A stretch of 34,501 nucleotides of DNA from Candidatus Buchananbacteria bacterium RIFCSPLOWO2_01_FULL_39_33 (lineage in GTDB: Bacteria; Patescibacteriota; Patescibacteriia; 2-01-FULL-39-33). Where the stretch lies: NCBI GenBank assembly GCA_001817505.1, contig MHIM01000031.1:1-34501 (forward strand), read 5' to 3'. Below, in pieces: positions 7,098-24,360 of this stretch. The number at the start of each line of letters is the position of its first letter. The first letter of the stretch is position 1. The notes beneath the pieces are model-generated. The model was not told where the DNA came from, made no database searches, and saw only the letters and a list, made by a program, of their open reading frames with translations. Made by a program: the position numbers and the translations under genes.

Positions 7098-8015
7098 ATG
7101 ATCATAATCACCATCAAACGCAGTTTATGGTTTGCTCTCCAATCATTTTGGAGGAATATTTGGCTATCACTGGCCACTATTTTTATCATCTCTTTGACTT
7201 TTTTATCCATTAATTTTTTAGTGATCATCAACGCCATTTCTGATTCGGCTATTACCGCCGTCAAAAATAAAATTGATGTTTCTATTTATTTCAAACAGGA
7301 TATTAGAGAAAGCAAAGTAGCGGAAATCAAATCGCATTTGGAAACTTTGACCCAAGTCAAAGAAATTGTTTATATCTCGCCTGATGAGAATTTAAGAGTT
7401 TTTAAAGAACGCCGCCAGGATGACCAGATTATTCAGGAAGTTTTAAAAGAATTGGAAGGCAACCCATTAAGTTCAACTCTGATCATTAAAGCCAAGAATT
7501 TAAGTGATTATCCGGAAATTTTAAAAGCCATTGATAATCCGGCTTATACTGATTTGATCGATAAAAAAAGCTATGATGATCATCAGACGGTGATTGCCAA
7601 TATCAATACCATTACCAATAATATTAAAAAGGGAGCCTTGGTTATAAGTTTGATGTTTGTTATTATCGCCGCTTTAATAGTTTTTAATACCGTCAGAATT
7701 GCTATTTTTACCCATCAGCAGGAAATCGGCATTATGAAGTTGGTTGGAGCGACCAACGGCTTCATCCGCTCGCCTTTTATTCTGGAAAATGTTTTTTCCG
7801 GTATCATGGCTTGTCTAGTGGCTATCTCGGTGATTTACTTCATTCTATCTTTAGTTCAGCCGCATCTGGCTAATTTTTTTAACGGCGTTGATCTTAATTT
7901 AATAGGTTATTTTAATAAAAATTTTATTTTTGTTTTTGGTAGCCAGCTTTTGGGCATTATTGTTTTGAATATTATTTCCAGCAGCTTAGCACTGGGCAAA
8001 TATTTGAAAGTATAA
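7098..8015 (+). CDS. ftsX: Cell division permease FtsX
   Basis: Four TM, large extracellular loop (DVSIYFKQDI...), 'QQEIGIMKLVGATNGFIRSPF' motif; adjacent to ftsE. Confidence 0.95.
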   Translation: MIIITIKRSLWFALQSFWRNIWLSLATIFIISLTFLSINFLVIINAISDSAITAVKNKIDVSIYFKQDIRESKVAEIKSHLETLTQVKEIVYISPDENLRVFKERRQDDQIIQEVLKELEGNPLSSTLIIKAKNLSDYPEILKAIDNPAYTDLIDKKSYDDHQTVIANINTITNNIKKGALVISLMFVIIAALIVFNTVRIAIFTHQQEIGIMKLVGATNGFIRSPFILENVFSGIMACLVAISVIYFILSLVQPHLANFFNGVDLNLIGYFNKNFIFVFGSQLLGIIVLNIISSSLALGKYLKV

Positions 8016-21138: not shown

Positions 21139-21214
21139 TGTCATTCCGGGCTTGACCCGGAATCCAGTGGTTTTATTTTATAATTCTGGATCCCCGATCA
21201 AGTCGGGGATGACA
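21139..21214. repeat. Head-to-head pair of TGTCATCCCGGACTTGATCCGGGATCCAG repeats (MITE-like)
   Basis: TGTCATTCCGGGCTTGACCCGGAATCCAG ... CTGGATCCCCGATCAAGTCGGGGATGACA; terminal inverted repeats. Confidence 0.8.
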
Positions 21215-21338
21215 AAAACAAAAGATTAACCAAGAAGACAGCAGACAAGCGAAGCTTGAATTGTAAAATGCTATGTCTCTAAAGTCGTAGTATTTTATTA
21301 TAATTTAGCTATTTTTTAGTTAAAATAGGCGGTAGCTA

Positions 21339-21367
21339 TTGACAGAATTTATAATGTATGATATAAT
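21339..21367 (+). promoter_or_regulatory. Exact-consensus sigma-70 promoter TTGACA-N17-TATAAT
   Basis: Both hexamers perfect with a 17-bp spacer (21345-21361). Confidence 0.85.
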
Positions 21368-21373
21368 GCAAAA

Positions 21374-21476
21374 ACAATCAGGAGAGAGATTACTAAAACA
21401 ATATAAATTTTTCATATATTGTTTACCGCTCAAGGACCCTCTCTCCACTGAAAGGGTTCTTTAGTTTTTACAAAAT
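21374..21476 (+). ncRNA. Candidate small structured RNA / attenuator with pseudoknot-like pairing
   Basis: GGAGAGAG(21381-88):CTCTCTCC(21439-46); inner hairpin AACAATATA..TATATTGTT; AAGGACCCT(21432-40):AGGGTTCTT(21453-61) then TAGTTTTT; no ORF. Confidence 0.6.
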
Positions 21477-21485
21477 CCCATGCCA

Positions 21486-21735
21486 GAGGCAGGCAAAGCG
21501 CCTTTGGCAGAAGGGGAGTGGCAATCTTTTACAACTTATCTTGACTCGCTGAAGCTTTAACGAAAGTGAATCAAGAAGATTCAAAGTTCCTTGTTAGGGC
21601 GGTATGCTGGTCATCCAGAGATATCGCCCTATGACAAGGGTCTTGGAATGAGACAGTGATGGCTTTCCTCCTCCGGTTTGCCCATCATTCTCTCTTCTTT
21701 AGATGACCCCAGGGTCGGGCTTTTTATGCCCGACC
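21486..21735 (+). ncRNA. Candidate structured non-coding region (series of strong hairpins)
   Basis: TGCCAGAGGC/GCCTTTGGCA; TCTTGAcTC/GAaTCAAGA; CCTTGTtAGGGCGgTATgCTGG-TCAT-CCAGaGATAtCGCCCTatGACAAGG; no convincing ORF. Confidence 0.45.
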
Positions 21736-21736
21736 C
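21712..21736. repeat. Hairpin H1 abutting palindromic repeat R1
   Basis: GGGTCGGGC-TTTTTAT-GCCCGACCC. Confidence 0.8.
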
Positions 21737-21815
21737 GCCAAAACTATCTTGCTAATCTGCCGATCTCATTAAAATCAGGAGGGGATTTACGGGGCTTGGC
21801 AGGATAGTTGTGGCG
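21736..21815. repeat. Imperfect palindromic repeat R1 (80 nt)
   Basis: CGCCAAAACTATCTTGCTAA...TTGGCAGGATAGTTGTGGCG; about 20-bp terminal stem with one mismatch; 78/80 identical to R2. Confidence 0.88.
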
Positions 21816-21845
21816 CACTATAAAACACAAAGGGGAAAACAAACA

Positions 21846-22049
21846 ATGAAATTAACATTAAACCCCTCGGATTTGTCTAGAGTTTATCAAACTGTAAGGG
21901 GTGACGTCGGCCAAGTGATCCCCACTCACAGGGTGTCGTTTGAGAAATTAAGCCCGGAGGCCCAAGCAGCGGTCAGAGTTGTTGGGCGAGCTATTTTCCA
22001 TTCTTGGGATGAGAAAACTTTCGTCGCTGTTTTTCCGCCCAAGGAATAA
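21846..22049 (+). CDS. Small hypothetical protein (67 aa)
   Basis: ATG after AAAGGGGAAAAC RBS-like sequence; first of three tightly packed ORFs. Confidence 0.6.
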   Translation: MKLTLNPSDLSRVYQTVRGDVGQVIPTHRVSFEKLSPEAQAAVRVVGRAIFHSWDEKTFVAVFPPKE

Positions 22050-22053
22050 TGAA

Positions 22054-22254
22054 ATGGAATTGATAGAAGCGGTGAAATCGGGCGGCCTTGAGGCGGTGGT
22101 AAGAGCCATCGCTAAGGGTATTGATCCCAATATAATTGGCCCAGACGGCCTGACTGCGCTGGATCATGCCGAGAAATTGGCAGAAGGGCCAAGTTCTCGA
22201 AATGTTATGGCATTTGTCAGGGACATGTTGGCAGCTGCCAACAAGGAGGAATAA
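22054..22254 (+). CDS. Small ankyrin-repeat-like protein (66 aa)
   Basis: MELIEAVKSGGLEAVVRAIAKGIDPNIIGPDGLTALDHAEKLAEG matches ankyrin-repeat consensus; AAGGA RBS. Confidence 0.65.
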   Translation: MELIEAVKSGGLEAVVRAIAKGIDPNIIGPDGLTALDHAEKLAEGPSSRNVMAFVRDMLAAANKEE

Positions 22255-22406
22255 TGGAACAGAAATATGGTGGTTGTCCGTTCTGCCAAAAGACCGTGCC
22301 GGTCTTTTGGACTCGTGGTCACTACCTTTTAGAGGACCACGAGGATGATGCCGTTCACCAACCCTGCGAGGGTTCGTATTGTGAACCCGAGGGGGTAACC
22401 AAGTAG
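22254..22406 (+). CDS. 50-aa Cys-rich hypothetical protein
   Basis: MEQKYGGCPFCQKTVPVFWTRGHYLLEDHEDDAVHQPCEGSYCEPEGVTK; AAGGAGG SD; TAATG overlap with upstream ORF. Confidence 0.6.
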   Translation: MEQKYGGCPFCQKTVPVFWTRGHYLLEDHEDDAVHQPCEGSYCEPEGVTK

Positions 22407-22413
22407 AAAACCA

Positions 22414-22440
22414 GGGAGCATGGATTTTATCTGTGCTCCC
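22414..22440. repeat. Hairpin H2 abutting palindromic repeat R2
   Basis: GGGAGCA-tg-GAT-tttt-ATC-tg-TGCTCCC. Confidence 0.8.
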
Positions 22441-22520
22441 CGCCAAAACTATCTTGCTAATCTGCCGATCTCACTAAAATCAGGAGGGGATTTACGGGGC
22501 TTGGCAGGATAGTTGTGACG
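22441..22520. repeat. Imperfect palindromic repeat R2 (80 nt)
   Basis: 78/80 identical to R1 (C/T and A/G substitutions only). Confidence 0.9.
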
Positions 22521-22547
22521 AGCAACTAAACTGAAAAGGAGTGAGTT

Positions 22548-22772
22548 ATGGCGTATGAAGTCAAAGAGAAAGAACACGGAGGGTTCAGGGAAGTGGTTTG
22601 GTGTAGGTGGTCTGAAAAGATAGACACAATCCAGTTCCCAAGTCTGGCCGAGATCATAGAAGCCGCTATAAGGGAGTTTCCAGAAATTCCATTTAGTGAT
22701 CTCATGATTGAGGCCAATGGTTTTGAAGCTGAACTCGTCTGCCTTAGGCAGAAGGGAGTTCCCAGGTACTAA
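22548..22772 (+). CDS. Small hypothetical protein (74 aa)
   Basis: AAAAGGAGTGAGTTATG strong RBS; sits between R2 and H3/R3. Confidence 0.65.
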   Translation: MAYEVKEKEHGGFREVVWCRWSEKIDTIQFPSLAEIIEAAIREFPEIPFSDLMIEANGFEAELVCLRQKGVPRY

Positions 22773-22780
22773 GGGTTCCA

Positions 22781-22809
22781 GGGGAGTACGGACAAAGTCC
22801 GTGCTCCCC
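22781..22809. repeat. Hairpin H3 abutting palindromic repeat R3
   Basis: GGGGAGTACGGAC-AAA-GTCCGTGCTCCCC, 13-bp stem with one wobble. Confidence 0.85.
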
Positions 22810-22895
22810 GCCAAAACTATCTTGCTAATATAGAATATTCCAGAAAATGAATTTTTACGAGGGAATTGAAATCAATTTGGCGAGATAGTTTTGGG
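22809..22895. repeat. Imperfect palindromic repeat R3 with conserved ends, diverged interior
   Basis: CGCCAAAACTATCTTGCTAA...TTGGCGAGATAGTTTTGGG; 18/18 terminal positions pair (incl. two G-T). Confidence 0.82.
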
Positions 22896-22914: not shown

Positions 22915-23215
22915 AAAGTTTAGAGCAATTTCATAGGGGAGGGAAAATAAAAAGATAACTGCCGGTCACAACCAAGAATAGGGCCGAGGCCAGATATCTT
23001 AATAATCATCTTCTATCAGTTGCTCTAAATAGCAACGGCCAGGGGGATTTTCTCTCTGCGCCGATACGAAGGAGGCATCTGCTTGTCCAACTCGTAGAAA
23101 CCTGCCTGTCGGCAGGCAAGAATTTTGAATCGCGCCTTTGGCGCTTAATTGCCTGAAAATCAGCAGTTATTAAAACTGCTAAATCAGCGATTAGCCGAAA
23201 TTTTTCTACGGGCTT
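22915..23215 (+). ncRNA. Candidate structured non-coding leader region
   Basis: TTTAGAGCAA / TTGCTCTAAA long-range pair vs local GTTGCT-ctaaat-AGCAAC; CTCGTAGAAA (23091-) / TTTCTACGGG (23203-) enclosing several hairpins; no ORF. Confidence 0.4.
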
Positions 23216-23227
23216 AAATCAGCAAGC

Positions 23228-23256
23228 TTGATAAAACCGGTACAAATAATTATATT
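23228..23256 (+). promoter_or_regulatory. Sigma-70-like promoter TTGATA-N17-TATATT
   Basis: 17-bp spacer; upstream of the Cys-rich ORF pair. Confidence 0.6.
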
Positions 23257-23331
23257 ATAAGAGACCGACCATTTTATCAGGGTCTTGTTCGTATCGTTGC
23301 GGAGAGAATAACCCAGACCAAAGGAGATTTT

Positions 23332-23490
23332 ATGGTTGTTCAATGCTGTGTTTGCAAGAAAACCAAGATGCCAGACGGCTCTTGGCAGGTTATTTCTGTG
23401 ATTGGGGAGGAAATAAGCCACGGCTATTGTCCTCCTTGCGCGGAGGAGGCAATGAACGCTCTAGAACAGAGCGGAAGGAAGGTCAAATGA
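23332..23490 (+). CDS. 52-aa stand-alone zinc-ribbon-like protein
   Basis: MVVQCCVCKKTKMPDGSWQVISVIGEEISHGYCPPCAEEAMNALEQSGRKVK; AAAGGAG RBS; CxxCK...SHGxCPxCAE motif. Confidence 0.65.
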   Translation: MVVQCCVCKKTKMPDGSWQVISVIGEEISHGYCPPCAEEAMNALEQSGRKVK

Positions 23491-23666
23491 AAATGTTATT
23501 GAAAAAGTTTTTTAGCCAGGAAAGAAGCAGTTCATGCGCTGGTTGTCCCTGCGAAGATTGGGATAACTGTGGCTGTGTGCTGTGCCCATTCTCCCAGGCC
23601 GATGAGCTTGAGAATGAGGGGCTGGACACAGTGGATTTTATGGCCGCTTTGTCCGGCGGCCGTTAA
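23487..23666 (+). CDS. 59-aa Cys-rich hypothetical protein
   Basis: ATGA overlap with upstream ORF; CAGCPCEDWDNCGCVLCPFS Cys cluster. Confidence 0.6.
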   Translation: MKMLLKKFFSQERSSSCAGCPCEDWDNCGCVLCPFSQADELENEGLDTVDFMAALSGGR

Positions 23667-24132: not shown

Positions 24133-24161
24133 TTGATTGAAATTTTTGGTGGTGATACAAT
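24133..24161 (+). promoter_or_regulatory. Sigma-70-like promoter TTGATT-N17-TACAAT
   Basis: 17-bp spacer; no ORF downstream before the terminator at 24276. Confidence 0.55.
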
Positions 24162-24167
24162 TTTAAA

Positions 24168-24303
24168 TTGAGGGAAGGATTCAATGCCGATTCGGTAAGA
24201 ATTGTATGACCTCAACTTAGGTTTGAGGGTTTTCTCTTCTATGCAATTTCCTAACGCTCCGGTTCACCCTTCTCTAAATCCCGTCTTAACGGACGGGATT
24301 TTT
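24168..24303 (+). ncRNA. Candidate ~135-nt small RNA
   Basis: Promoter-to-terminator interval without ORF; CCTCAA/TTGAGG and AATTGTAT/ATGCAATT pairings. Confidence 0.5.
24276..24303 (+). terminator. Rho-independent terminator
   Basis: AAATCCCGTC-ttaacg-GACGGGATTT TT. Confidence 0.85.
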
Positions 24304-24360
24304 ATGCGGAAGCTTTCTTAAATACAATGCCAATAGCATTGTATTTAAGAATGATCGCAT
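24304..24360. repeat. Large perfect palindrome
   Basis: TTCTTAAATACAATGC-CAATA-GCATTGTATTTAAGAA (16-bp perfect stem) flanked by ATGCG/CGCAT. Confidence 0.9.

Follow-up and report, generated by a model that had tools for sequence, protein, structure and literature searches.

Conserved hairpin–palindrome units separate replaced tiny ORFs at one locus of Candidatus Buchananbacteria: a candidate intercistronic RNA element

The early genes of phage T7 have RNase III processing sites between them, which form irregular long hairpins. Among integron-type cassette arrays, CALINs lack the integron integrase IntI by definition, and the absence of this enzyme alone does not exclude a CALIN. Recombination at attC uses the folded bottom strand of the site (PMC2727003). 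The Correia or NEMIS repeats of Neisseria, ~100–155 bp in length and bounded by long terminal inverted repeats, are co-transcribed with adjacent genes into long stem-loops and have been described as RNase III substrates (PMC2229807, PMC2649163), and the large ornate RNAs GOLLD, ROOL, and OLE are long transcripts with many hairpins, to which no role has been assigned (PMC12286853).

In this study, we analyse an array of hairpin–palindrome (H-R) units and tiny ORFs in a window of 34,501 nucleotides, which is contig 31 of a 0.97-Mb Candidatus Buchananbacteria genome (G000, 97% complete), using for comparison two congeneric species (G001 and G002) and more distant relatives. Buchananbacteria are members of the Candidate Phyla Radiation (CPR). 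The locus is a clear case of conserved, non-coding, folded separators between which the genes have been fully replaced, in bacteria with ~1-Mb genomes and many unexplained small proteins.

Each of the systems above resembles the locus in part. As in T7, irregular long hairpins are repeated between small cistrons of what is predicted to be one transcript; unlike in T7, each site adjoins an additional GC hairpin and the sequence of the outer stem is strongly conserved. The Correia/NEMIS repeats have long terminal inverted repeats like those of R, but they are dispersed in many copies, whereas R occurs at one locus only, always abuts a GC hairpin, and lies mostly between small cistrons. GOLLD, ROOL, and OLE share with our locus the (here predicted) long multi-hairpin transcript without an assigned role, while differing in that the modules described below have no Rfam match and that tiny ORFs lie within the structured transcript. 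Integron arrays and CALINs have same-orientation folded sites, conserved ends, short variable ORFs, and a fixed chromosomal place (PMC2727003), as does this array, which differs in having no GTTRRRY/RYYYAAC core and no integron integrase, in favouring the sense-strand fold, and in having ORFs that look like normal small cistrons within a transcript. As processing sites, the units would make up a new class of intercistronic RNA elements not represented in Rfam; as exchange points, they would form a system akin to an integron but lacking the integrase. None of the family-conserved RNA modules at the same locus (b, d, and e) matches an Rfam family.

The hairpin–palindrome units

In each unit, a GC-rich hairpin (H) is directly joined to a palindrome with a long stem (R), which is made of an 18-bp outer stem, P1, and an inner stem, P2; in all units, the P1 start (C/T)CAAAAC comes 0–3 nt after H. 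The initial annotation of the window had described three tandem units, and we find all three, in + orientation, between uvrD/pcrA and pheS: H1 (21712–21736) with R1 (21738–21813), H2 (22414–22440) with R2 (22443–22518), and H3 (22781–22809) with R3 (22811–22894). The near-identity noted for R1 and R2 holds, the second copy matching the first at 98% (blastn, E 9.8e-35). R3 had been described as keeping its ends around an unrelated interior: the end is indeed kept, with a 23-nt left end in common with the first copy (E 1.8e-5), but the interior is not wholly unrelated, as P2 and a G(A/G)GGAATT / GGGGATTT block are common to the R1/R2 type and the R3 type in the alignment with relatives. The two stem gains read in R3, A-G to A-T and T-G to T-A, are correct, and all seven units aligned from the three species have the 18-pair P1, the inner P2, and a GAGGG-type block.

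The repeat is not a simple local duplication, as units also occur at the homologous loci of G001 and G002, which carry three and two of them, respectively, between uvrD/pcrA and the small conserved genes that precede pheS (the G002 array contig stops before pheS, and pheS lies with the membrane-protein gene on another contig). The array thus has three carrier species and eight units in total, with no convincing unit elsewhere in these three genomes or in the other seven family genomes searched. A strict R-unit pattern matched only within the genus among 380 phylum genomes, gave no match in viral contigs, and retrieved from the GTDB collection only the two congeneric Candidatus Buchananbacteria MAGs (PEZY01000012.1 and JAUSEE010000035.1). 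Two unit-like matches, at G000:C13:855 and G005:C53:44190, were weak and did not convince on inspection, and the literature on integrons in Patescibacteria and on structured RNAs of the CPR yielded nothing about this locus.

The units fall into three types. The alpha type comprises R1, R2, and the first unit of G001 (G0U1, G0U2, and G1U1), the beta type the second unit of G001 and the first of G002 (G1U2 and G2U1), and the gamma type, to which R3 belongs, is always the last unit in all three species. Between species, the interior DNA is 84–91% identical for gamma and 72–74% for alpha; the beta pair is only 49% identical, and since a ~160-nt hairpin-forming insert between P1 and P2 disrupts the interior of the G002 unit, the beta assignment is the least certain.

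Fold energies set all three units apart from dinucleotide shuffles (z-scores of -7.2, -5.3, and -9.7 for units 1, 2, and 3), and no shuffle out of 200 folded as well as the real unit in any of the three cases. Folding in a 120-nt frame slid along the entire window also shows the array region to be more structured on average than the rest, but this is not specific evidence, because equally strong scores came from other intergenic hairpins and from stretches next to tRNAs. The hairpins, said earlier to differ in sequence and yet stay paired, do so across the eight units of the three species: stem positions 5–9 use three to six pair types, and every pair is standard (with the stems taken from each hairpin's own predicted fold), while some of the outer sequence is shared, with GGAGYA/TGCTCC recurring in four of the eight. 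No T tract directly follows H in any unit, by sequence or by terminator scan, so H is not an ordinary intrinsic terminator.

Within R, pairing is kept through base changes in both P1 and P2, a modest signal drawn from seven related sequences and weaker than the covariation of module b. P1 is further constrained: 11 of its 18 pairs never vary in the seven-unit alignment, which is beyond what pairing requires and suggests sequence-specific recognition. Its arms pair equally well with those of other units as with their own, so that cis versus trans pairing is no discriminator. Opposed P1 pairs over the eight units include 14 G-T against 3 A-C, and the + strand folds with lower energy than the - strand in all seven full units; the favoured fold is therefore on the ORF-sense strand. 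This fits an RNA and is, by itself, also compatible with top-strand single-stranded DNA.

Tiny ORFs replaced between conserved separators

Four tiny ORFs, all on the + strand, occupy the gaps of the G000 array. ORFs A (21846–22049, 67 aa), B (22054–22254, 66 aa), and C (22254–22406, 50 aa) follow the first unit, and ORF D (22548–22772, 74 aa) follows the second. ORF B has a weak ankyrin-like match just below the cut-off (Pfam Ank_4, E 4e-4), ORF C is Cys-rich and zinc-ribbon-like by inspection with no family above the cut-off, and ORF D has no homologue in searches of families, phage records, viral contigs, and class genomes. Single-sequence structure models are of low confidence (pLDDT 62 for ORF A and 59 for ORF D), and a codon-usage test could not confirm that several of the tiny ORFs are coding, because antisense negative controls also scored high. 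In all three species, the ORF groups begin 24–41 nt after a unit, at ATGs preceded by purine-rich, Shine-Dalgarno-like sequences. The spacing of about 30 nt reported for R1 and R2 thus stands, although the exact distances from the end of P1 are 32 and 29 nt rather than 31 and 28.

Homologous loci do not have a fixed gene content: the ORFs differ wholly between congeners, with A, B, and C and then D in G000, one ORF per gap in G001, and a single ORF in G002. The inter-unit DNA gives no blastn match between congeners at E<1, array ORFs show no similarity between species by blastp, and in a shuffle test the array proteins reach z-scores of at most 1.6, versus 3.5–24 for the flanking small genes. 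A concatenated search of 381 class genomes recovered array ORFs in their own genome only, except ORF A, together with a marginal match to a G001 ORF in G434 (E 0.002). Clear homologues of ORF A (39–47% identity) occur in two CPR genomes of one distant family and in none of its own genus; there, they also sit among small ORFs, but R units are lacking. We take ORF A to be a real gene of patchy distribution, to judge from these matches. Its homologues in distant CPR genomes make exchange fit better than divergence, and the tiny ORFs have more likely been replaced than diverged.

The structured transcript around the array

Upstream of the array, a TTGACA-17-TATAAT element with a TG extension (21339–21367, + strand) matches the consensus at 12 of 12 positions, is conserved in aligned G001 and G002, and is promoter-like, of the perfect sigma-70 kind by consensus match. 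It precedes an attenuator-like leader with an internal hairpin (21379–21476, + strand), conserved in three species with paired changes, in which a terminator hairpin with a T-rich tail, AAGGACCC...GGGTTCTT, has a loop that GGAGAGAG can pair with. A pseudoknot or attenuator-like function may be inferred from this pattern, which has no match in viral contigs. Next comes module b (21580–21651, + strand), a 28-pair hairpin conserved at this locus across the family, with compensatory changes in 8 of the 28 pairs over five genomes. A model of module b located a copy that had not gone into building it, in G006 (E 3.6e-10) and again upstream of the membrane-protein gene, and we regard the module as a candidate new RNA family. 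A weak match (E 7.5e-4) lies in another family of the class (L085, G441:C35:3748-3810).

Downstream of the last unit lie module d (22923–23025, + strand), a folded segment of the form GGGGAGGGA...GGTCACAACC...GGGCC whose closing stem changes in a paired way between species, and module e (23044–23314, + strand), a long inverted repeat, GATACGAAGGAGGCA...TGCTTGTC...TTCGTATCG, containing an internal promoter-like site at 23228–23256. Loops of structured RNA hold a different hairpin-forming insert in each species (L015 14600-14770; window 23090-23225; L014 ~7200-7460), with the host stem kept around the insert. Two conserved small Cys-rich proteins follow on the + strand: one beginning MVVQCCVCKK (23332–23490), 54–68% identical between congeners and with a homologue also in G009, and a second (23487–23666). 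At gathering score, an Rfam search of the window and five related loci returned only tRNAs, and a permissive search added chance-level matches such as mir-184 and MIR828.

Both G009 and G003 carry modules b, d, and e but no R units or array ORFs; the modules have been rearranged, since in G003 d lies nested within e. In G004, G005, and G006, other genes (or the contig end) directly follow uvrD. Judged from this distribution, the array seems to have been added at genus level to an older, family-conserved structured transcript. In the sister genus represented by G006, module b is followed by different tiny ORFs and, at their end, by a unit of the H plus long-stem kind whose sequence is unrelated (L046 10712-10853), in which a 15-bp GC hairpin abuts a very long-stem palindrome, CCAAACCTCAGACAG...TTGTTTGAGGTTTG (MFE -80, z -11.3).

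Punctuation, leaders, or exchange sites

A cis-acting RNA element common to small operons, which the initial annotation had offered as the main alternative to its cassette model, is the best-supported reading. We see about an even chance that the H-R units are genus-specific, intercistronic, cis-acting structured RNAs, likely serving as processing or stability punctuation, with exchange of the tiny genes by homologous recombination. One polycistronic transcript would start at the promoter at 21339 and run through the family-conserved structured leader; co-transcription across the units is assumed from this promoter and from the lack of terminators between the ORFs. Because the H-R unit is repeated between the small cistrons, each tiny-ORF group would follow one unit and precede the next. 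A long irregular duplex between ORFs is seen on folding all three units, and this duplex in R could be a site of cleavage or protection, for which RNase III is the natural candidate by analogy with the NEMIS/Correia transcripts (PMC2229807, PMC2649163). Were R a processing site, every tiny-ORF group would carry R as a stem-loop at its 5' end and H as a hairpin at its 3' end, and might be expressed or decay independently. Homologous recombination within the conserved units and flanks would most simply account for exchange of the tiny genes over evolutionary time, with no need for a dedicated recombinase. RNase III is encoded in G000, G001, G003, and G009; the RNase III reading is weakened because none was found in the G002 MAG, which carries units. 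The G006 unit, of the same architecture after the same module b despite its unrelated sequence, fits the punctuation reading. Counting against it are the conservation of P1 beyond pairing, which suggests recognition of a specific sequence, the equally good pairing of P1 arms between units, the codon test that left several tiny ORFs unconfirmed as coding, and the restriction of the array to three species.

The conservation of P1 would be explained if R were a riboswitch-like or protein-binding leader, a sequence-specific site that switches the following tiny ORF on or off in translation or transcription. The regular placement of R 24–41 nt before each ORF group and the attenuator-like leader that opens the transcript agree with such a role, but the last (gamma) unit is followed in all three species by module d rather than by a tiny ORF, no alternative structure was seen masking a start codon or forming a terminator, and R has no Rfam match; we judge this fairly unlikely.

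Punctuation and exchange might also coincide. The units would then form an integrase-free, sedentary cassette platform in the CPR, punctuating a polycistronic transcript and also marking the points at which tiny genes from a pool common to the CPR are exchanged, with the hairpin–palindrome architecture kept across genera despite wholly replaced sequence, as in G006. We hold this to be unlikely.

A more literal version of the cassette model has site-specific recombination take place at the units, as parts of a platform resembling an integron in which R folds as single-stranded DNA and an Xer/XerA-type enzyme swaps tiny-ORF cassettes. The likeness to integron cassettes drawn in the initial annotation stands in so far as the same-orientation folded separators have conserved ends and enclose short ORFs whose content is wholly different between congeners, variation of cassette content between relatives being a mark of integrons and CALINs; identity with either does not stand. 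As already suspected, the canonical core is absent, no RYYYAAC...GTTRRRY pair occurring on either strand of any of the eight units, whose outer 7-mers read YCAAAAC / GTTNTGR. Nor does an IntI appear: a genome search gave only two XerC/D/A-like tyrosine recombinases, a pair also present in the array-less G003 and G009, and integron-integrase models scored below cut-off (TIGR02249, 216 bits versus 265 for the better recombinase). The better fold, moreover, is that of the ORF-sense (top) strand, contrary to the attC strand rule. An integron or attC array was rejected on these grounds, namely core sites, the lack of an array-specific integrase, and strand. Recombination sites of another kind would account for folded sites conserved in one orientation while everything between them is replaced, for P1 conservation beyond pairing, for the XerA-type recombinase in the genome, and for an ORF A common to distant CPR lineages. 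Against them stand, besides the missing attC core and the sense-strand fold, the ordinary recombinase pair shared with array-less genomes and the confinement of convincing units to one place per genome, and we consider them improbable.

With its conserved 18-bp terminal inverted repeats, variable interiors, and length of ~76–91 bp, R has the form of small mobile repeats (PMC2229807), and other hairpin-type inserts are found in the region, in G002 unit 1 and in module e. R might accordingly be a miniature inverted-repeat element of the Correia/NEMIS or ERIC kind, inserted repeatedly by chance and without function for the tiny genes. Copies, however, occur at this locus only in G000, G001, and G002, with no dispersed ones; R always abuts H in the same orientation; and positional orthologues are kept across species, all of which makes a mobile element very improbable. 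Inspection of the occupied sites showed no constant target duplication. It is least probable of all that the tiny ORFs are homologues diverged beyond recognition with no cassette exchange, for although one flanking small Cys protein is only ~30–40% identical between congeners, the array ORFs differ in number and length, their shuffle z-scores are at noise level, the adjoining unit DNA is 72–91% identical, and ORF A matches distant families and nothing in its own genus.

Other structured elements lie in the window on either side of the array. At 21140–21215, there is a palindromic element, TGTCATTCCGGG...GGGGATGACA, of a kind often dispersed in bacterial genomes. At 24140–24310, a structured leader, GGGAAGGATTC...CCGGTTCACCCTTCTC, followed by a terminator, lies upstream of the membrane-protein gene and pheS, and this leader is also present in G002 (L049 ~4470-4310).
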